Assembly: GCA_013177935.1 (NCBI GenBank)
Contig: JABLXZ010000004.1
Location: 62,001 to 126,000 of the forward strand
Direction of reading: 5' to 3'
DNA length: 64,000 bases
DNA from: a candidate division WOR-3 bacterium
Lineage (GTDB): Bacteria > Hydrothermota > Tepidihabitantia > Tepidihabitantales > Tepidihabitantaceae
Below the pieces are notes generated by a model. The model was not told the DNA's origin, did no database searches, and was given only the letters and a program-made list of their open reading frames with translations. Shown piece after piece: positions 27,894-40,324 of this stretch. Positions within the stretch are counted from its first letter, which is position 1. Every line of letters begins with the position of its first letter. Position numbers and translations under genes: made by a program.

Positions 27894-27963
27894 TAAGAGC
27901 CACCGTCGCCTTCCATTATCCAAACTTGACCCGATGGGAATAATCGTTAACTTTTAATACCCG

Positions 27964-28767
27964 GTGCGGAACTTTATTATCAAACTTGCCGTCCTGTTTC
28001 CTGTCATCCTCATTTGCTTTGCGGGTTGTCGCCGGAGCGCCAAAACCAGCCTGACCATCGCCGGTTCAACCTCAGTTCAACCATTTGCTGAACTCCTTGC
28101 CGAGCGCTATATGATGGAACACCCGGGCGTGGAAATCAATGTCCAGGGCGGCGGCTCCAGCGCTGGTATCCGTGCGGTTCAGAACCGCATCTGCGACATC
28201 GGAATGTCCTCCCGACCATTAACGCCCGAGGAACAAAACCTTCAGCAGTGGACAATCGCCCTTGATGGTATCGTCCTGATTGTCCACAAACAAAACCCGG
28301 TAAGAAACATCACACTAAAACAGTTACAGGATGTCTTCTCGGGCAAAATTCGCAACTGGCAGGAGCTGGGGGGTCCAGACCAGAAAATCACCGTCATCAC
28401 CCGCGAAGAGGGGTCAGGTACACGGGGTTGTTTTGAAGAAATCGTAATGAAAGATGTACACTTCGCCGCGGATGCGCTTGTTCAGGATTGTAATGGTGCG
28501 GTGCGCGAAATCGTTGCCAGCGACCCGGCAGCAATCGGCTACATCTCATTCGGACTGGTAGATGAACGGGTCCAGCCTTTGACTGTAGATGGTATCACCC
28601 CTTCTGAGTCAACCATCACCGCCCATATCTATCCTCTTGCCCGCAAATTCCTTTTCCTCACCAATGGTGAACCCAGTACCCTTGCCCGTTCCTTTCTTGA
28701 TTTCGTACTGGGACCGGAAGGGCAAAAAACGCTTGCTGACGAAGGGCTGATAAAGGTGGCGCCTTGA
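27964..28767 (+). CDS. pstS: Phosphate ABC transporter substrate-binding lipoprotein (system 1)
   Basis: This extracytoplasmic phosphate-binding protein has 267 residues. The signal is lipoprotein-type (VILICFAGCRRS, Cys 21). Ligand-loop motifs of the PstS family follow: TIAGSTSVQPFAELLAERY, GGGSSAGIRAVQNRICDIGM, ALDGIVLIVHKQNPV, FSGKIRNWQELGG and TREEGSGTRGCFEEIV. It starts with GTG 27964 and shows no ribosome-binding site. TTGACC at 27926 and TTAAC/TTTAAT just upstream suggest a promoter, but spacing is poor. It heads pstS-C-A-B1-B2. Confidence 0.93.
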   Translation: MRNFIIKLAVLFPVILICFAGCRRSAKTSLTIAGSTSVQPFAELLAERYMMEHPGVEINVQGGGSSAGIRAVQNRICDIGMSSRPLTPEEQNLQQWTIALDGIVLIVHKQNPVRNITLKQLQDVFSGKIRNWQELGGPDQKITVITREEGSGTRGCFEEIVMKDVHFAADALVQDCNGAVREIVASDPAAIGYISFGLVDERVQPLTVDGITPSESTITAHIYPLARKFLFLTNGEPSTLARSFLDFVLGPEGQKTLADEGLIKVAP

Positions 28768-30436: not shown

Positions 30437-31186
30437 ATGAAAGAGAAAATCACCCTTGAGCACCTCACCGTCACCGCCGATGGCAAATCGATTCTCACCG
30501 ACATCAACCTCACCATCTTTGAACATGAAATTTTCTCTATTATCGGTCCGGCACATTCGGGCAAAACCACCCTTTTAAGAACCATTAACCGGCTGATTGA
30601 AACCAACCCCGGTTTTACCCGCACCGGCAAACTACTGCTTGACGGCAAAGATGTCTGGAACTGGGACATTGACACTTTACGACGCCGGGTCGGGCTCATC
30701 TTCGCCACCCCGATTCCGCTCCCGGGCACAATCTTTGACAATATCGCGTACGGACCTCGACTCAAAGGCATCCGCAACCTAAGAAAACTAACCGAAATCG
30801 TGGAACAGAGCCTCCGTGCCGCCTTCCTCTGGGACGAAGTAAAAGACCGACTATTCACCTCTGCCCTCCGGCTCTCTGGTGGTCAACAGCAACGGCTCTG
30901 CATCGCCCGGGCTCTGGCACTTGACCCTGAGGTGGTGATGATGGACGAACCCTGTTCCGGACTGGACCCCATTTCCACAGCCCAGATTGAGGATGCGATG
31001 CGCCAGTTGAAAACCCGCTATACTTTCATCCTTGTAACCAACAATGTAAAACAGGCGGCACGGGTATCGGACCGGGTTGCCTTTTTTCTTGCCGGTCAAC
31101 TGATTGAGGTGAACACCGCGGAAATCATCTTTACCCGGCCGGCAGATCAACGAACCGACGACTACATCTCGGGACGCATCGGTTAA
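30437..31186 (+). CDS. pstB: PstB1: phosphate ABC ATPase with degenerate Q- and H-loops
   Basis: A 249-residue PstB homologue. Walker A is GPAHSGKT (37-44; PstB usually GPSGCGKS). The Q-loop reads LIFATPIP, with Ala90 where Gln is expected. The signature LSGGQ is intact (146-150). Walker B is VVMMDE with catalytic E171, and the D-loop is SGLD. The H-loop reads LVTNNV: Asn202 replaces the switch His. It should bind ATP but be a poor ATPase on its own. It starts right after the pstA stop and is 10 nt before PstB2, which has the opposite defect. Codon use looks like its neighbours and the frame is intact, so it is not a pseudogene. Confidence 0.9.
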
Positions 31187-31196
31187 GGAGTGCAAG

Positions 31197-31958
31197 ATGC
31201 TTGATACCTGCAACACGAAACTACAGACCCAAAACCTCAATGTGTATTACGGCAACTTCCGGGCGGTGCAGGATGTCAACATCAACTTTCCATCCTGCGC
31301 CATCACTGCAATTATCGGTCCCTCAGGCTGTGGCAAATCCACCCTCTTACGCAGTTTTAACCGGATGAATGAACTGATTGAAGGCGCCCGCATTCAGGGA
31401 GAAATACTCCTTGACGGCGTCAACATTTACCGGCTCAATGTCCTGGAACTGCGAAAGCGGGTCGGAATGGTGTTTCAGCGACCCAACGCCTTCCCATTTT
31501 CGGTATTTGACAATGTTGCCTATGGTCCCCGGATTCATGGTGAACGGCGTCACTCCCGGCTTGCGGAAATCGTGGAACGCAGTCTGCGTGCGGTCCGGCT
31601 CTGGGACGAACTCAAAGACCAATTGAACAAGAACGCCTTAACCCTTACCGACGAACAGCGCCAGCGCCTTTGTATCGCCCGATTACTGGCAGTCGAGCCC
31701 GAAGTCCTGCTTCTTGACGAGCCCTGTTCAGCACTCGACCCGATTGCCACCCTGCACATCGAAGAACTCCTGCGCCAGCTCCGGGAAAAATACACCATCA
31801 TTATCGTCACCCACAATATGCAGCAAGCCGCCCGCGTATCAGATTTTACCGGATTTATGCTACTCGGCCGCTTGATTGAATTTGGCACTACCAGCCAGAT
31901 TTTTACCAAACCTAAACAACCCGACACCGAAAACTACATCTCGGGTAAATTTGGCTAA
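31197..31958 (+). CDS. pstB: PstB2: phosphate ABC ATPase with degenerate signature motif
   Basis: A 253-residue PstB homologue. It has a consensus Walker A GPSGCGKS (41-48), Q-loop VFQRP with Gln94, Walker B LLLDE with E175, D-loop SALD and H-loop VTHN with H206. The signature motif is LTDEQ (150-154) instead of LSGGQ: the Ser and both Gly are lost. In an ABC dimer each ATP sits between Walker A of one subunit and LSGGQ of the other. A PstB1-PstB2 heterodimer would therefore form one complete site (PstB2 Walker/Q/H with PstB1 LSGGQ) and one degenerate site. AAGGAG precedes the ATG. This dimer is an inference from sequence. Confidence 0.9.
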
Positions 31959-32018: not shown

Positions 32019-32078
32019 TTAACGAAAAATTAACCAAACGGTTATACCTGTTTAACTTTCTGCCCCTACCATTTTAAC
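32019..32078 (+). promoter_or_regulatory. TTAAC repeats in 11-bp register: candidate Pho box upstream of porin-pstS2
   Basis: TTAAC occurs at 32019, 32030, 32052 and 32074: spacings of 11, 22 and 22, all multiples of 11 bp. GTTAT at 32041 fills one of the missing positions partially. PhoB/PhoP-type winged-helix regulators bind direct repeats spaced 11 bp, and a PhoB-type regulator is encoded 5.4 kb downstream. TTAACG (32019-32024) with TTATAC (32042-32047), spacer 17, could be promoter boxes inside the array. Confidence 0.6.
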
Positions 32079-32109
32079 GATGTTTAAAAACCCAAAAAAG
32101 GAGGCAACT

Positions 32110-33300
32110 TTGTCGCGTAAATCTATCGTCCTGTTTGGGGTGGCAATTTTGGCCACCGTGCTGTTCGCCCTGGAACCAGGGCAAACCGAACTGGAGCATA
32201 ACGGCTGGTTCCGCTACACCAACCAATCGTCGGGGTTCAAGATTACCGACCCGAGCATCAGCCGCTTCTCTCTGGAGCGGGGCTATCTCCGATTCTCGTA
32301 CCAGTGGTCGCCGGCATTCTTCACCAAAATGACCGTGGACATCTTCTCTTCGGATAAATATCCCGAAGGCGCCACCGTCCGTCTTAAAGAGGCTTATGCC
32401 GACATCGCACTGCCCGGTGTGCGCGACTTCAACCTCACCGCCGGCTTGCAGAAGCACTACTTCGGTCTTATCTACTCCTGGGATTACACCCATCCGGAAA
32501 AGTCACTTGCCGACGACCAGAGTGTTTGCGCCTCAGCCGACTACGGATTGACCATTAATGGCTATCTACCTTCCGGTCTGGGAGAACTGCAACTCGGTGT
32601 CTACAACGGCGAAGGGTATAAGTATGCAGGCAAGTATGTCAACACGTCACCCGAACTTCTCGGTAACATCCGGCTCACGCCATTCCCGGGCATCGCGCTG
32701 GGCGTCTCAATGTTCACCAATGCTGCTGACCAGAGCCATTACAAAAACGATAAAAAGGGTAGAATAACCCAATCCGGTAGCACCTTCTTTATGAATGCCG
32801 ATACCACAAATAAGAACCGTTTTGCCCTTGCCCCAATGTTCAAACTGGCTTTTGGTCCGGTCTCGTTGCTCGGTGAGTACATCAGTTACAGCTACACTCG
32901 CTACTTCAGTTACTACAAAATAAACTTTGACAGCGCTGGTGCTGTCACCGACTCCACTTTAACCGAAAAGACCAAGAAATACTCGTTCAGTGGATTAGAC
33001 CTTGTGCCAACGGTTACTCTGGCAAAGCGTAGTTTAGAAATCTTCGGCCGTTTTTCAATCTGGGACCGTAAAGAGGAACACGACAGCGAAACGGAACTCA
33101 ATAAAGACAAAAGTTTCATCCGCTATGGTGCGGGTTTTAACTACCATTTAATCCGACGCGAGAAAGGTAAGCCCGGTCTTGAGTTCCAGTTTGCCTGGAC
33201 CAGGACCCAGCCTAAAAACAGCGCAATAAAACCGACCGATGCACTTCTTGCCCAGGTCCGGTTTGAGTGGAGTACATTGATAAATAAACCAGAACTGTAA
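32110..33300 (+). CDS. Outer-membrane porin-like beta-barrel, phosphate-regulon linked
   Basis: A 396-residue exported protein with alternating amphipathic strands and aromatic belts (GYLRFSYQWSPAFFTKMTVD, EAYADIALPGVRDFNLTAGL, GLEFQFAWTRTQPKN) and a terminal LLAQVRFEWSTL strand. This matches the general look of phosphate-selective porins O/P, though it is a pattern-level call. The start is TTG 32110: AAGGAGG ends 5 nt before it and it gives signal peptide MSRKSIVLFGVAILATVLFA. An ATG at 32080 would leave the ribosome-binding site inside the coding region. It is 14 nt from pstS2, and the Pho-box array lies upstream, so it likely carries phosphate (or another anion) across the outer membrane. 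Confidence 0.75.
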   Translation: MSRKSIVLFGVAILATVLFALEPGQTELEHNGWFRYTNQSSGFKITDPSISRFSLERGYLRFSYQWSPAFFTKMTVDIFSSDKYPEGATVRLKEAYADIALPGVRDFNLTAGLQKHYFGLIYSWDYTHPEKSLADDQSVCASADYGLTINGYLPSGLGELQLGVYNGEGYKYAGKYVNTSPELLGNIRLTPFPGIALGVSMFTNAADQSHYKNDKKGRITQSGSTFFMNADTTNKNRFALAPMFKLAFGPVSLLGEYISYSYTRYFSYYKINFDSAGAVTDSTLTEKTKKYSFSGLDLVPTVTLAKRSLEIFGRFSIWDRKEEHDSETELNKDKSFIRYGAGFNYHLIRREKGKPGLEFQFAWTRTQPKNSAIKPTDALLAQVRFEWSTLINKPEL

Positions 33301-33314
33301 ATAAAGGAGGTAAA

Positions 33315-34178
33315 ATGAAAAAAGTACTTTCATTAATAACAGCGTTAGCACTGAGCACATCGCTCATTGCCGGCGAGATGATTATCGTCAAAGGTTCAGA
33401 TACGATGCTAAACCTCGTACAGCGGCTTGCCGAGGGGTTCTCAGCGGTCCGGGGTGATGTCACCGTCTCGGTCGCAGGTGGTGGTTCCGGAGTCGGCATC
33501 ACCGCAATCACCAACGGGGAGGTCGACATCGCCAACGCCTCACGCGCGATCAAATCAAAGGAAATCTCGGCGGCGCGCGCCCAGGGTGTAAACCCGGTGG
33601 AAATCGTCATCGCCCTTGATGGTCTGGCGGTAATCGTCAACAGCAAGAACCCGGTAAAGAACCTTACCGTCCAGCAAATCGGTGCCATCTACCGGGGTGA
33701 AATCAAAAACTGGAAAGATGTTGGCGGACCGAATAAAAAAATCGTCCTCTATGGTCGACAGCCAAATTCCGGAACATTCGTCTTCTTCCGGGAAGAAGTG
33801 GTTCAGGGAGAGTACGCATCTTATATGCGCCAGATGAACGGCAGCGCCCAGATTGTTGATGCGGTTAAAACCGACGAAGGCGGGATTGGTTATGTTGGTC
33901 TGGGCTACTTCCGCAATGTTGAAGGAATAAAACCATTGGCGGTGGCAAAAACTTCCAATGACCGCTACATTTCACCGGAGAACGAAGCCGATGTTAAAAG
34001 CGGTGCCTATCCCTTAACCCGACCGCTTTATCAGTACACCAACGGTAAACCCAAAGGCGCGGCACTCGATTTTATCCGGTTTGAATTGAGTCCGGAAGGC
34101 CAGAAAATTGTCGAAGAAGAAGGGTTTGTCGCAGTTACCCAACCGTACATCGAAAAGAACAACAAAATACTGCAGTGA
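33315..34178 (+). CDS. pstS: Phosphate ABC transporter substrate-binding protein (system 2)
   Basis: A 287-residue periplasmic binding protein with signal peptide MKKVLSLITALALSTSLIAG and no lipobox, unlike PstS1. The phosphate-loop motifs differ slightly: IVKGSDTMLNLVQRLAEGF, AGGGSGVGITAITNGEVDIA, VIALDGLAVIVNSKNPVKNL, YRGEIKNWKDVGGP, GRQPNSGTFVFFREEVV. It matches the PstS_2/PBP-like group that takes phosphate. AAAGGAGG precedes the ATG. It is followed by pstC2 after 28 nt. The two PstS proteins (lipoprotein and soluble) suggest different affinities or locations. Confidence 0.92.
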   Translation: MKKVLSLITALALSTSLIAGEMIIVKGSDTMLNLVQRLAEGFSAVRGDVTVSVAGGGSGVGITAITNGEVDIANASRAIKSKEISAARAQGVNPVEIVIALDGLAVIVNSKNPVKNLTVQQIGAIYRGEIKNWKDVGGPNKKIVLYGRQPNSGTFVFFREEVVQGEYASYMRQMNGSAQIVDAVKTDEGGIGYVGLGYFRNVEGIKPLAVAKTSNDRYISPENEADVKSGAYPLTRPLYQYTNGKPKGAALDFIRFELSPEGQKIVEEEGFVAVTQPYIEKNNKILQ

Positions 34179-34206: not shown

Positions 34207-35133
34207 GTGAGAATGCGCAAAAAGATTGACCGACTCGCAGGAATAACCTTCCTCATCAATGCGGTATTGGCCGCCGGGGTCTTGTTTGGCATCCTTCTCT
34301 TTCTGTTCTCTTACGGCGTACGTGCTTTCATTCCTGCACCGGGAACAGACCCCGGCGACCCAGAATCTCAGCCGCTGACGGTTTTCGGGTTTCTATTTGG
34401 TACGGTTTGGAATCCGGATGCTTACGGACAGCCGCGCTACGGGTTAATCCCTTTATTTCTGGGCAGTTTTTTAACAACGCTCATCGCCCTTATCATTTCG
34501 GTTCCGGTGGGTATTGCCGGTGCCCTATTTATCGCCGAAAGACTTACCGGTTGGGTGCGCATTGCTGTAAAAATGGTCGTGGAACTGTTTGCCGGATTTC
34601 CCTCTGTCGTTATCGGCCTGTTCGGGCTTGTGGTCCTGGCCCCATTTATCGCACGCATTTTTAACCTGCCCTCGGGCTTAAACCTGCTCACCGCCAGTGT
34701 CATCCTCGCACTGATGTCTCTCCCTACAATCATCTCGGTATCCGAAGATGCCCTGCGCGTGGTTCCTCACTCCTACCGGGAAGCCGCGTATGCTCTGGGA
34801 GCATCACCCTGGACAACCGCAATCAAAGTAATTCTACCGGCAGCGCGTTCCGGTATTCTGGCAGCAGTGATGCTCGGCTTTGGTCGGGCAATTGGTGAAA
34901 CCATGGCGGTTTTGATGGTAGCGGGGAATGCGCCCATCATTCCCCGCTCCCTATTTGACCCGGTTCGCACCATCACTACTACCCTTGCCATTGAACTGGG
35001 TGAAACCGCGGCCAATTCTATCCACTTCTTTAGCCTTTTTGCCCTGGGTTTTGTTCTCTTTGTCATCGCCTTAGCGACTAACATTATCGCCGAATCGTTA
35101 ATCAGACGGGAAAAAAGGAGTTTTACTTTATGA
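34207..35133 (+). CDS. pstC: Phosphate ABC transporter permease PstC (system 2)
   Basis: A 308-residue permease with a long periplasmic insertion after the first helix (APGTDPGDPESQPLTVFGFL). It has the conserved GLIPLFLGSFLTTLIALIIS, FIAERLTGWVRIAVKMVVEL, FAGFPSVVIGLFGLVVL, the EAA loop YREAAYALGASPWTTAIKVI and GFGRAIGETMAVLMVAGNAP. The GTG start has AGAAGG just upstream. The stop overlaps the pstA2 start by 4 nt. Confidence 0.93.
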   Translation: MRMRKKIDRLAGITFLINAVLAAGVLFGILLFLFSYGVRAFIPAPGTDPGDPESQPLTVFGFLFGTVWNPDAYGQPRYGLIPLFLGSFLTTLIALIISVPVGIAGALFIAERLTGWVRIAVKMVVELFAGFPSVVIGLFGLVVLAPFIARIFNLPSGLNLLTASVILALMSLPTIISVSEDALRVVPHSYREAAYALGASPWTTAIKVILPAARSGILAAVMLGFGRAIGETMAVLMVAGNAPIIPRSLFDPVRTITTTLAIELGETAANSIHFFSLFALGFVLFVIALATNIIAESLIRREKRSFTL

Positions 35134-36029
35134 ACAAACCGTTACCACCGCCTGAAAATTACCGCCACCTTCCCAGAAAGCGTTTTACCAGTAACATCGG
35201 TTTTGTCATCCTCGCCATTCCTTTAATAATTTTCATTCTATTTATTGGGTTTATGGTTTTCTACCTGTTCAAGAACGGTATCAATGTCATTTCCTGGAAA
35301 TTTCTCACGCAGCCACCGGAAAAAGGAATGACCGCCGGCGGAATTTTCCCCTGTATCGTCGGTACAATGTATGTAACCCTGATTTCGCTTCTATTTTCGG
35401 TGCCCGTCGGGTTATTTTCCGGTATTTACCTTGCTGAGTACGCACCCAACAACATCTTTACTCAGGTAATGCGCAGCTCGATTCGCGCCCTTGCCGGAAT
35501 TCCGAGTATTGTCTACGGGCTCTTTGGAGTTGCCCTATTCATTCGCGCCTTCCAGATCGGCCTTTCGGTTCTCGCGTCAGGATTAACTCTCGGGCTGATG
35601 AGCCTGCCCTGGATTATCACAACTGTGGAAGAGTCTATTACAGCAATACCCAACTCTTTCCGGGAAGGAGCACTTGCCCTGGGCGCAACGAAATGGGAGT
35701 CAATCCGGAGTAATGTTTTACCTTACGCATTTCCGGGCATTCTTACCGGCGTTCTTCTTGCCATCGCCCGCACCGTGGGTGAAACAGCACCCATTCTGTT
35801 CACCGGCGTAACCTATTTTACCCGGCAGATTCCGCGCACACCTTTGGAGAAATTTATGGCACTGCCTTATCACATTTTCGTTCTGGCAACTCAACACGAC
35901 CAGTTAACGAAAGTTCGCCCCATCGCATTTGGCACCGCGGTGGTATTACTGATTTTCGTGCTCGCGTTTGACATTATCGCCTTTTTTACCAGAATGCGTT
36001 TTGCCACAACTAACAAGTGGCAGGTTTAA
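35130..36029 (+). CDS. pstA: Phosphate ABC transporter permease PstA (system 2)
   Basis: A 299-residue permease with KGMTAGGIFPCIVGTMYVTL, IYLAEYAPNNIFTQVMRSSI, LAGIPSIVYGLFGVALFI, the canonical PstA EAA loop FREGALALGATKWESIRSNV and ARTVGETAPILFTGVTYF. The EAA loop is canonical, in contrast to PstA1. It is followed by pstB3 after three bases. Confidence 0.93.
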   Translation: MNKPLPPPENYRHLPRKRFTSNIGFVILAIPLIIFILFIGFMVFYLFKNGINVISWKFLTQPPEKGMTAGGIFPCIVGTMYVTLISLLFSVPVGLFSGIYLAEYAPNNIFTQVMRSSIRALAGIPSIVYGLFGVALFIRAFQIGLSVLASGLTLGLMSLPWIITTVEESITAIPNSFREGALALGATKWESIRSNVLPYAFPGILTGVLLAIARTVGETAPILFTGVTYFTRQIPRTPLEKFMALPYHIFVLATQHDQLTKVRPIAFGTAVVLLIFVLAFDIIAFFTRMRFATTNKWQV

Positions 36030-36032
36030 ATT

Positions 36033-36791
36033 ATGGAAAAGGGACACATTGAGTTCAAGAATCTGAACCTCTGGTTCGGTACAAACCACATCCTTAAAAA
36101 CATTTCATTTACCATCTTACCCCGGACCGTAACCGCCATTATGGGTCCCTCCGGCTGCGGCAAATCTACCCTGCTGCGCAGCATTAACCGGATGAACGAC
36201 CTCATATCCGAAACCAGAATCACCGGTAGTATTTTGATTGATGGAGAAGATATTTACCGTGAGAAAATTGATGTCATTGAACTACGCAAAAGGGTTGGAA
36301 TGGTCTTCCAGAAACCGAACCCATTCCCAAAATCAATCTTCGAAAATGTTGCTTTCGGGATAAAAATTCACAATCTGGCATCGGGAATTGAATTACAACG
36401 GCGCGTAAAGGAAGCGCTTCAATTAGCTAACCTTTGGGAGGAAGTGCAGCATCGACTTTGGGACAACGCCTTTTCGCTCTCCGGCGGACAACAACAACGC
36501 CTCTGCATCGCCCGCTGTCTGGCTGTTGGCCCAGAAATAATTCTACTCGACGAACCAGCGTCTGCTCTCGACCCAATTTCAACGGCAAAACTGGAAGAAC
36601 TGATTGTCCAGCTGAAGAAGTATTACACCATCGTCATCGTTACCCACAATCTGCAACAGGCTGCTCGGGTATCAGAATACTGTGCCTTTTTGATGCTGGG
36701 TGAACTCGTAGAATTTGGACCAACTGAACGAATCTTTACAAAACCGCAAGATAAGCGCACGGAAGATTTCCTAACCGGGAAATTTGGATAA
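36033..36791 (+). CDS. pstB: Phosphate ABC transporter ATPase PstB (system 2, canonical)
   Basis: A 252-residue ATPase with all motifs intact: Walker [10 protein letters not shown]-loop VFQKPNPFP, signature LSGGQQQR, Walker B IILLDE, D-loop SALD and H-loop VTHN. It serves as an internal control for the altered PstB1 and PstB2 4.9 kb upstream. It is presumed to work as a homodimer under PstC2/PstA2. It ends 65 nt before phoU, with a probable separate promoter between them. Confidence 0.95.
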
Positions 36792-36856: not shown

Positions 36857-37525
36857 ATGACCCTACTTGAAGAGAAAATCGCAAATTTGAAAGAGAAACT
36901 GCTGGCAATGGCAGCGGCAGTAGAAAAGATGGTCGATATCAGTATCCAGTCACTGGTGAAAAGAGACCACCTTTTAGCAGAGCAGGTAATTAACGACCTC
37001 GAGCCCAAAATCAACCAGGCTGAGATTGAAATTGAAGATACCGCCATTAATCTCATTGCCCTTCATCAACCCGAAGCATCTAACCTCCGCACTATAACCA
37101 TGGTGATTAAAATCAACAACGACCTTGAGCGGATCGGCGACCATGCAGTCAATATCGCCGAAGCAGCGTTGTTCCTTATCCCCCGCCCGCCGGTAAAACC
37201 ACTAATTGACCTTCCTCGAATGGCACAACACACAATTCAAATGCTGCGTGACAGCCTCGACGCCTTTACTAAAAAAGATGTCGAACTGGCACGCCGCGTG
37301 TGTGCCCGTGACTCAATAGTTGACTCCTTAAAAGACCAGATTAACCGTGAACTTATCACTTATATGACCAGTGACGCCACCACTATTGACCGGGCTTTGA
37401 AACTGATGCTTATCTCTCTGAATCTGGAACGGATTGCCGACCTCGCAACCAATATCTCCGAAGATGTGGTTTATGCCGTGACGGGCGAGGTAATCAAACA
37501 TGGCAAATGTGAACCCGTCACCTGA
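36857..37525 (+). CDS. phoU: Phosphate signalling accessory protein PhoU
   Basis: A 222-residue protein of two PhoU three-helix repeats (about 8-98 and 112-205), each with the metal-binding E/DxxxD-type signature, for example NDLERIGDHAVNIAEAALF and SLNLERIADLATNISEDVVY. PhoU links the Pst transporter to the PhoR kinase and signals phosphate sufficiency. It lies after pstB3 and its last 26 bases overlap the regulator gene, so both are translated from one mRNA. Confidence 0.95.
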   Translation: MTLLEEKIANLKEKLLAMAAAVEKMVDISIQSLVKRDHLLAEQVINDLEPKINQAEIEIEDTAINLIALHQPEASNLRTITMVIKINNDLERIGDHAVNIAEAALFLIPRPPVKPLIDLPRMAQHTIQMLRDSLDAFTKKDVELARRVCARDSIVDSLKDQINRELITYMTSDATTIDRALKLMLISLNLERIADLATNISEDVVYAVTGEVIKHGKCEPVT

Positions 37526-38234
37526 AAAACCTCCAGAACAAACACTGCATGCACGAAGCAAATTAATCGCGATAGTTGACGATGAGCCTGATATTCTCGA
37601 ACTACTATCCCTTCATCTGACAAAATCGGGGTTTAGCGTTAAGAAGATGACAAGCGGCGGGGAGCTTTATCAGTTCCTTGAAAAAGTAACCCCCAATCTG
37701 ATAATCCTTGACCTAATGCTCCCTGATGTCGATGGCATTGATATCTGCCGTTTTCTCAAACAGGAGCCACGATTTGCCTCAATTCCGATAATTATGCTTA
37801 CTGCGCGGGGAGAAGAATCGGACCGGATTATCGGTTTAGAATTAGGTGCTGATGACTACATTACCAAACCGTTTTCCCCGAAAGAGGTTGTTGCCCGTGT
37901 CCGTGCTGTGTTGCGACGACAAGAACAAATGACGACTGACGAAAAAATTACTATTGACACGGATTTGATTATTTACCCCAAAAAGCATGAAGTAACAGCG
38001 GCGGGTAGGAAAATTGACCTCACTGCTACCGAGTTCCGCATTTTAATGATACTGGCATCAAAACCGGGCTGGGTTTTCACTCGGGACCAGATTATTGACG
38101 AACTGTGGGGATATGATAAACCGATATTAGACCGCACCATTGATGTCCATATCCAGCACCTTCGCAAGAAATTGGGCAAATTCGGTGAATTAATCCGAAA
38201 CATTCGGGGGGTTGGTTATAAACTCGAATTCTGA
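37500..38234 (+). CDS. PhoB/PhoP-type response regulator (OmpR family)
   Basis: A 244-residue two-domain regulator. A receiver domain (about 20-135) has acidic pair DDEP, phospho-acceptor D71 in IILDLMLP, Thr in MLTARG and Lys in YITKPF. The C-terminal winged helix (about 145-244) contains LTATEFRILMILASKPGWVF, DRTIDVHIQHLRKKLG and the GVGYKLEF end. By position after phoU and before the PhoR-like kinase it most likely controls the phosphate regulon and would bind the TTAAC array. The 20-residue N-terminal extension is unusual. ATG 37500 is within phoU; GAGGTAATC precedes it. Confidence 0.92.
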   Translation: MANVNPSPEKPPEQTLHARSKLIAIVDDEPDILELLSLHLTKSGFSVKKMTSGGELYQFLEKVTPNLIILDLMLPDVDGIDICRFLKQEPRFASIPIIMLTARGEESDRIIGLELGADDYITKPFSPKEVVARVRAVLRRQEQMTTDEKITIDTDLIIYPKKHEVTAAGRKIDLTATEFRILMILASKPGWVFTRDQIIDELWGYDKPILDRTIDVHIQHLRKKLGKFGELIRNIRGVGYKLEF

Positions 38235-38243
38235 GTCAACGGC

Positions 38244-39590
38244 ATGAATATCAGGCCAGAGAAACAACTCTTTCTTTATATTGTCGGTAGTTACCTTCTC
38301 ATTGCCGGTTGTCCGGTCATTATTTTGTTGGTTCTTTTGCTTTTAAAAATACCTCGTACAACCGCTTTCTTATCTGCCATCGGTGTTCTCATAATCTTCT
38401 CTATTCTTATCGCCTTGAAAGTTTTTTCTCGGTTTCAAACTCTGGTTTTAGAAATTGAAACCATCTGCCACCGTATCGACTCCGGTCAACCTCCTATTCA
38501 ATCGGCTCCGGTTAAATTGAAAATTGCATCTCAACTCTTAAATTTGTTAAACCGCACCGCTGCTCGCATCAATAAAGACATCACCCAGCTGCGAGAGAAA
38601 GAAGAGTGGTTGAATGCCATACTTGGCTCATTGCAAGAAGGATTATTGATTCTTGACCCCCAGGGTAAAGTTCTGATTGTCAACAACAAGTTTCAGCAGT
38701 TTCTGAATGTCGAACGGGTCGTCGGCAAGTTCTACTGGGAGGTCATTCGTACCCCCCAACTGGCAAATCTTATTCAACAGTTGAATCAAGAAAATTCCAA
38801 CCTCAACGCCGAGGTTCAAATCAACTCCAGGACATTTCTCTGTTGCGCGATTTATTTACCTACTACTGGACAGCGTCTCCTGACCTTTAACGATATTACT
38901 GAACTCATCGAGGCCGAAAAAATGAAAAAGGAGTTTATCGCCAGTGTCTCGCACGAACTAAAAACGCCATTAACAGCAATCAAGGGATATATTGAAACAA
39001 TGGAAGAAACCGCCGATGAAGATAATGCTGTTTACCTGCAGATTGTTCGCCGCCATACCGAACGCTTAATCAACCTCGTCCAGGACCTGTTAAACCTCTC
39101 TGCTTTGGAAAATCCGGATGCCAAACTCTTTTGGGAAGATGTCAACCTGAAAACCCTCGCAACTAATGTTCTCGCTATCTTTGAGAACTCGGCAAAAAAG
39201 AAAGGTTTGAAACTAACGCATGAACTACCCGAACCACCTCCCGTAATAAAAGGTGACGGGCTTCGGCTTGAACAGGCACTTATCAACCTGCTGGATAACG
39301 CTATCAAATATACCGAAAAAGGCACTGTGTCTCTCGCTGTTAAAGTCGTAAATGACCAGGTAGTAATTTCGATTCAGGACACTGGTATCGGCATTGCCGC
39401 CGAACACATCCCGAGAATTTTTGAGCGATTTTATGTTGTTGACCGCTCTCGCTCAAGACAAAGCGGCGGAACCGGTTTGGGACTGGCGATTGTCAAACAT
39501 ATTGTCGAACTCCACCAGGGTAAGGTTTTGGTAGAAAGCACTCCAGGCACGGGCTCAAAATTTTCCGTAATCCTTCCAATGAACAGATGA
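38244..39590 (+). CDS. PhoR-type sensor histidine kinase
   Basis: A 448-residue kinase with two N-terminal transmembrane helices (about 10-34 and 41-60) and almost no periplasmic loop between them, as in PhoR, which senses through Pst/PhoU. A PAS domain (about 122-215) follows, then HisKA with phospho-acceptor H237 in FIASVSHELKTPLTAIKGYI and HATPase_c (NLLDNAIKYTEKG, DTGIGIAAEHIPRIFERFYV, GTGLGLAIVKHIVELHQG). It is 9 nt after the regulator. Phosphate as the signal is inferred from the neighbourhood. Confidence 0.93.
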   Translation: MNIRPEKQLFLYIVGSYLLIAGCPVIILLVLLLLKIPRTTAFLSAIGVLIIFSILIALKVFSRFQTLVLEIETICHRIDSGQPPIQSAPVKLKIASQLLNLLNRTAARINKDITQLREKEEWLNAILGSLQEGLLILDPQGKVLIVNNKFQQFLNVERVVGKFYWEVIRTPQLANLIQQLNQENSNLNAEVQINSRTFLCCAIYLPTTGQRLLTFNDITELIEAEKMKKEFIASVSHELKTPLTAIKGYIETMEETADEDNAVYLQIVRRHTERLINLVQDLLNLSALENPDAKLFWEDVNLKTLATNVLAIFENSAKKKGLKLTHELPEPPPVIKGDGLRLEQALINLLDNAIKYTEKGTVSLAVKVVNDQVVISIQDTGIGIAAEHIPRIFERFYVVDRSRSRQSGGTGLGLAIVKHIVELHQGKVLVESTPGTGSKFSVILPMNR

Positions 39591-40324
39591 AATCGCCTTT
39601 TACCATCGCTCATATATCTGACCTGCATCTCGGTGGCTCTTATTTTGTTCCTGAATTGGGGAATAAACTGGTCGATTTGCAGAATCGGCTCATGCCTGAT
39701 GTCATAGTTATCACCGGTGACCTCACCACCGAAGGTCATATTCATGAGTATGACCAGGTAGTAACATATTTAAAGCGCTTTCAATCTAAACAACGAATCG
39801 TCGTTCCGGGAAACCACGATGCCCGCAACGAAGGATATGTAATTTTTGAAGAAATTTTTGGTACCCGTTATCCTTTCTACCAAAAAGGTAACATAGCAAT
39901 ATTTGGTGTAGACTCAAGCCAGCCTGACATTGATGACGGACACATTGGCCGGGCTAATTATCCGATAATCACGCAAAAATTGAGTAACCCGACACAAATT
40001 AAAATTATGGCAATGCATCATCACCTTGTGCCGATACCCGGCACCGGTCGAGAACGCCACATACCCACTGACGCCGGAGATGTTTTAAAACTTTGCATCG
40101 ACCTTGATATTCGTATAATACTCTCCGGCCACAAGCATCGGCCCTGGGTCTGGCTCCTCGAAAAAACCTGGCTCATTACTGGAGGCACCGCTACCTCACA
40201 GCGCCTGAAAGGTCGGTCTTATCCCTCGTTTAACATCTTGAAAATATTTAAAAGACAATTCACTTTAACAGAGATAAATGTGGCTACTAGGATAGTTCAG
40301 AAAAAACTAAAAGCGACCCTTTAA
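39587..40324 (+). CDS. Calcineurin-like metallophosphoesterase
   Basis: A 245-residue enzyme with the complete dimetal core: TIAHISDLHLGG (D-x-H), DVIVITGDLTTEG (GD), VVPGNHDARN (GNHD), IMAMHHHLVPIP and ILSGHKHRPW (GHxH). It is related to CpdA-like cyclic-nucleotide/phosphodiester hydrolases; substrate is not determined. The ATG overlaps the phoR stop by 4 nt, so it is the last gene of the phosphate island and may release phosphate from phosphodiesters. Its 3' end overlaps the convergent large secreted protein gene by 18 nt. Confidence 0.9.
   Translation: MKSPFTIAHISDLHLGGSYFVPELGNKLVDLQNRLMPDVIVITGDLTTEGHIHEYDQVVTYLKRFQSKQRIVVPGNHDARNEGYVIFEEIFGTRYPFYQKGNIAIFGVDSSQPDIDDGHIGRANYPIITQKLSNPTQIKIMAMHHHLVPIPGTGRERHIPTDAGDVLKLCIDLDIRIILSGHKHRPWVWLLEKTWLITGGTATSQRLKGRSYPSFNILKIFKRQFTLTEINVATRIVQKKLKATL

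Follow-up and report, generated by a model that had tools for sequence, protein, structure and literature searches.

As a rule, response regulators of the OmpR family recognise direct repeats of about 10-11 bp. In Bacillus subtilis, the boxes of PhoP consist of TTAACA-like repeats, with the same half-site and 11-bp period as at the locus described here; a literature search on TTAACA together with PhoP returned nothing relevant. In Escherichia coli PhoB, residue R201 reads a base. The upstream sequence of pstS in E. coli K-12 (CTGTCATAAAA CTGTCATATTC CTTACATATAA CTGTCACCTGT TTGTCCTATTTTG) carries units with the half-site GTCAT/GTCAC at offsets 0, 11 and 33, a degenerate slot at 22, and TATTTT from +48.

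PHO boxes are built of 11-nt direct repeat units, two or more in number (PMC4415409). The residues W184, G185, V190 and D192 of E. coli PhoB have been listed as polymerase-binding (PMC3348028), and structural models imply a strict spacing between PhoB and the core promoter (PMC10294691). The Pho box of the cyanobacterial regulator SphR is CTTAACCT, 8 bp with a 3-bp linker (PMC1906773).

Here, we report the analysis of a repeat array in a 64,000-nucleotide stretch of DNA (the window) from a candidate division WOR-3 bacterium. The array lies ahead of an operon for a porin and a second phosphate importer, and provides a predicted, base-resolved phosphate-starvation promoter for an uncultured lineage. 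The array, the operon and the promoter of Pst system 1 are on the + strand.

The TTAAC array in the window and the genome

TTAAC occurs at 32019, 32030, 32052 and 32074, in a gap of 151 bp between the pstB1b stop (31958) and the porin start, and the four copies that the original prediction had placed at multiples of 11 bp between the two Pst systems are all present. Nowhere else in the window do at least three TTAAC share one 11-bp register, and 20,000 dinucleotide shuffles of the gap gave at most two copies in register, against the four observed. On its own, a TTAACN6TTAAC pair carries no signal in the genome: it has six matches (five distinct sites), and the reversed control has eight. The whole array is unusual: in a pattern search with up to three mismatches allowed, the complete element was found at one site in the 1.96-Mb genome; an equal frequency in random intergenic DNA, which would have spoken against the original prediction, is not observed.

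Promoter architecture and conservation among relatives

Comparison with relatives delimits a promoter of 54 bp (32019-32072) that consists of four 11-bp units and a -10 hexamer. Upstream regions were taken from the porin orthologues of the family and order, and class relatives were added by pattern. The 22 promoters align gap-free, with TTAAC at 0 (unit 1), YTAAC at 11 (unit 2), a weaker unit 3 in slot 22, TTRAY at 33 (unit 4) and TAnnnT from 48; the conservation of the units is partly by selection in those members that were found with the unit pattern, and that of the -10 is not affected. Unit 1 (TTAACGAAAAA, 32019-32029) reads TT(A/G/C)AC in all 22 promoters, and the YTnAC of unit 2 (TTAACCAAACG, 32030-32040) is kept in nearly all of them. 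The degenerate unit 3 (GTTATACCTGT, 32041-32051) overlaps the -35 region and reads TTAAT in some class relatives; nTnAT is retained at offsets 23-26 in 21-22 of the 22, and in unit 4 (TTAACTTTCTG, 32052-32062) TT is found at offsets 33-34 in 20-22. The -10 hexamer, TACCAT (32067-32072), starts at exactly +48, with the first base of unit 1 as 0, and 18 of 22 relatives have TAnnnT at this distance. At the array promoter, no -35 hexamer and no sigma70 consensus site were found.

Three of the four TTAAC copies from which the site was originally drawn (32019, 32030 and 32052) are thus conserved; the fourth (32074-32078), between the -10 and the predicted transcription start, falls outside the element, and the degenerate unit at 32041 had been overlooked. 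A ribosome-binding site, GGAGG (32099-32103), can be read from the sequence before the TTG start of the porin gene at 32110, and an AAAGGAG-like site stands ahead of the start in most of the porin upstream regions of relatives.

In 21 further genomes from the family, order and class, the same operon has this element in front of it, and the lack of conservation that would have spoken against the original prediction is not observed. In 15 upstream regions chosen by orthology alone, YTRAC pairs 11, 22 or 33 bp apart number 23 of 36, against 0.19 on average and at most 3 in shuffles. A profile built without the window's genus scores the array site at 25.6 bits, against 4.2 bits for the next site in the window. 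Several class relatives have more distant PstS proteins, and the profile scan found no array near those PstS genes.

The porin-pst operon

The first gene (32110-33300, TTG start) encodes a predicted beta-barrel porin of 396 aa. An in-frame ATG at 32080 was considered as its start and is disfavoured: the TTG at 32110 has the GGAGG site, and the upstream ATG is, by eye, out of frame in one relative (G014). The protein has no Pfam or PDB sequence match; Pfam returned no family at E up to 1, and so no match to Porin_O_P. Its predicted model (mean pLDDT 76) matches solved porins in a fold search, where OprP (2o4v) has the highest query-normalised TM-score among the matches listed (0.60, E 1.4e-9), with OprO (4rjw) at 0.59 and other porins matching as well. 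Judged by this model, the protein is predicted to be OprP-like, with the porin beta-barrel fold.

Downstream lie the genes for PstS2 (33315-34178; TIGR02136, 256.7 bits), PstC2 (34207-35133; TIGR02138, 279 bits), PstA2 (35130-36029; TIGR00974, 260.6 bits) and PstB2 (36033-36791; TIGR00972, 381.8 bits), all above the respective cut-offs, and for PhoU (36857-37525; Pfam PF01895, E 2e-45). The response regulator at 37500-38234, the presumed array binder, is 41% identical to E. coli PhoB. We call it PhoB-like because the PhoB model TIGR02154 is the best of 95 matching models and the best NCBIfam match, but its score of 249.3 bits lies under the curated equivalog cut-off of 296.2; the BaeR and MtrA models also match well. 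At the positions of PhoB W184, G185, V190 and D192 it has W, G, I and D; these polymerase-binding positions are conserved (W, G, I/V, D), which fits the PhoB-type reading. The sensor kinase at 38244-39590 is PhoR-like, with PnpS and PhoR as the best models, both under their cut-offs (PhoR TIGR02966, 304.4 bits against a curated 334.2). A calcineurin-like phosphoesterase (39587-40324; Pfam PF00149, E 9e-18) is probably the last gene of the operon, the gene order of which is kept in five relatives.

Pst system 1 and its promoter

Pst system 1 is preceded by a sigma70-type promoter, TTGACC-N16-TAACTT (27926-27953), and TTGnnn-N16-TAnnnT recurs at the same distance from pstS1 in four relatives (G001, G002, G006 and G010). 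No PhoB array was found in the region upstream of pstS1 in this genus. The system 1 operon has only the one TTAAC (27947) that had been ascribed to it, and this copy overlaps the -10 hexamer of the promoter. In this genus, the conserved promoter without an array supports the proposal that the two Pst systems are regulated differently. In the sister genus g3, pstS1 does have an array (9-19 bits). The predictions that follow are that two Pst importers in one cell would be under different regulation, and that the regulation of system 1 would differ between sister genera.

Two further features of system 1 were observed. The pstS1 gene appears to be nearly leaderless (27948-27966), with a GTG start 10 nt past the -10 and no ribosome-binding site; the distance from -10 to start is equal in G006 and G010, and pstS1 of g3 looks similar. 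The two ATPase subunits, PstB1a (30437-31186) and PstB1b (31197-31958), are degenerate in complementary ways that are conserved in five genomes: PstB1a keeps LSGGQ but lacks both the glutamine of the Q-loop and the histidine of the switch (VTNN), and PstB1b retains these two residues and has LTDEQ in place of LSGGQ. From this pattern, a heterodimer is predicted in which one ATP site works and the other is dead, an arrangement that would be unusual for a phosphate importer.

Extent of the regulon

The array is the only such site found in this genome; with one copy of the complete element, the regulon that can be detected comprises one operon. Genus g3 has the array at further places, ahead of a CYTH and Ppx/GppA pair, a gene for an LMWPc/ArsC-type phosphatase, and the gene for a 112-aa protein. 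The site ahead of the CYTH and Ppx/GppA genes, a PhoB-type array in G013 (L198:3352-5480), suggests that polyphosphate metabolism may belong to the regulon of that genus. The 112-aa protein (L126:2315-2653; also L123 and L127), which belongs to no known Pfam family, has its own PhoB-type array and is encoded just upstream of the porin gene. In two relatives from the order (L197:4638, minus strand, and L209:1501), what follows a good match is a large beta-rich protein, of the surface or secreted, and not a phosphate gene.

Spread of the layout in other phyla

We scanned 2.5 kb upstream of pstS with the full profile at 71 named loci from other phyla. The profile scores above 15 bits at 33 of these 71 loci, several of which are close relatives of one another (for example, among Ignavibacteria), and at none with the reversed profile or on the opposite strand. 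A search with the units only, which holds no information on the -10, found 30 loci, including records from Ignavibacteria, Cloacimonadota, KSB1, Caldisericaceae, Firestonebacteria and Omnitrophota. TAnnnT stands exactly at +48 in 27 of these 30 independent named loci, and no other offset has it in more than eight.

Half-site variants reading TTCAC are found in the Omnitrophota loci, and these link the half-site of the window to that of E. coli. In Ignavibacteria and one Chlorobiota record (L078, L081, L083, L086, L088, L092 and L103), units 1-3 are kept and unit 4 is lost, and the -10, still at +48, reads TAATTTG, which resembles the Bacteroidetes-type -7 motif.

The promoter type is known; what is new is that its spacing recurs ahead of phosphate genes across many uncultured phyla. 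We consider it slightly more likely than not that the four-unit pstS promoter with a -10 at exactly +48 is an ancient bacterial layout, which E. coli and many uncultured phyla would have retained as the half-site (GTCAT, TTCAC, TTTAC, TTAAC, CTAAC) changed along with PhoB's recognition helix.

Proposed mechanism and alternative explanations

The window has at least two 11-nt direct repeat units, a fixed spacing to the -10 without a -35, and a location before phosphate-acquisition genes that recurs in relatives. Together with the -10 spacing of E. coli pstS and phoA and the PhoB/PhoR-like pair in the operon, this 11-bp PHO-box architecture lends support to the PhoB-type reading of the original prediction. 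We consider it very probable, from the sequence comparisons, that the array is a classical PhoB-dependent promoter, acting as a phosphate-starvation switch for the porin and Pst operon. The gene content of the operon, with an OprP-like porin, PstSCAB, PhoU and a PhoB/PhoR-like pair, makes it most likely that this is the operon's own PhoB box. Against this reading stand the scores of the regulator and kinase under the equivalog cut-offs, and the several class relatives in which no array was found near the more distant PstS genes.

The phosphorylated PhoB-like regulator (37500-38234) would bind the four units at 32019-32062 head-to-tail, probably as two dimers. Units 3, over the -35 position, and 4 would position PhoB so that it recruits sigma region 4, and RNA polymerase with it, to the -10 (32067-32072), the bound regulator standing in for the absent -35 hexamer. 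The start of transcription would lie near 32079-32081. The predicted transcript runs through the porin, pstSCAB, phoU, phoB, phoR and phosphoesterase genes; the regulator is encoded within its own transcript and would therefore amplify its own synthesis, with positive feedback on phoB and phoR. Low phosphate would thus turn on the OprP-like porin and the second Pst importer, and system 1 would be transcribed from its ordinary sigma70 promoter.

Another OmpR/PhoB-family regulator, for example, one that is PhoP-, WalR- or BaeR-like, might bind the array in place of the operon's PhoB-like protein. Repeats of this period are common to the family, and the good matches of the BaeR and MtrA models to the regulator fit such a view, but the array goes with phosphate genes in different genera and phyla, its geometry is that of E. 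coli pstS, and the regulator shares its operon with PhoU and the PhoR-like kinase; we regard binding by another regulator as very unlikely. A functional unit at 32074, such that all four named TTAAC would form the site, has in its favour the shared 11-bp register in the window. This copy would fall between the -10 and the start point, though, and in the nearest relative (G001) it is displaced by 1 bp, and in the other relatives it is absent from the register; for these last reasons we take it to be incidental, and its role as a unit to be extremely unlikely. That the repeats came together by chance in AT-rich intergenic DNA would agree with the pair being no commoner in the genome than its reversed control, but three copies in register were never reached in the 20,000 shuffles, and the conservation in 22 genomes, at a fixed distance from the -10, refutes this explanation, the probability of which is negligible.

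Comparison with known systems

The value added here is the exact architecture and its spread. The 54-bp profile finds phosphate regulons in many uncultured phyla, and the constant distance from repeats to -10 is evolutionary evidence in favour of the strict spacing between PhoB and core promoter that is expected from structural models (PMC10294691).

Like the window, cyanobacterial SphR Pho boxes repeat a TTAAC core with an 11-bp period ahead of pst and phoA genes; they belong to another phylum and, in the part of the report consulted, are described as tandem repeats and not as a fixed four-unit layout with a -10 at +48 (PMC1906773). In E. coli phoA, the distance from the last unit to the -10 is 15 bp, as in the window, but there are two units instead of four. 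The closest likeness is to the E. coli K-12 pstS promoter, where PhoB acts at two pho boxes: units at 0, 11 and 33, a degenerate slot at 22 and a -10 at +48, before pstS, are common to both, in an alignment of TTAAC with GTCAT/GTCAC that was chosen by motif similarity and that another choice would shift by 1-2 bp. The window differs in its half-site, which is TTAAC instead of GTCAT/GTCAC, in the porin gene that comes first in the operon, and in phoB and phoR, which sit inside the same operon. The residue corresponding to R201 in the recognition helix of E. coli PhoB is H or N here, a replacement that would fit the changed half-site. In this alignment, the promoter of the window shares its layout with the textbook pstS promoter and differs in the half-site.
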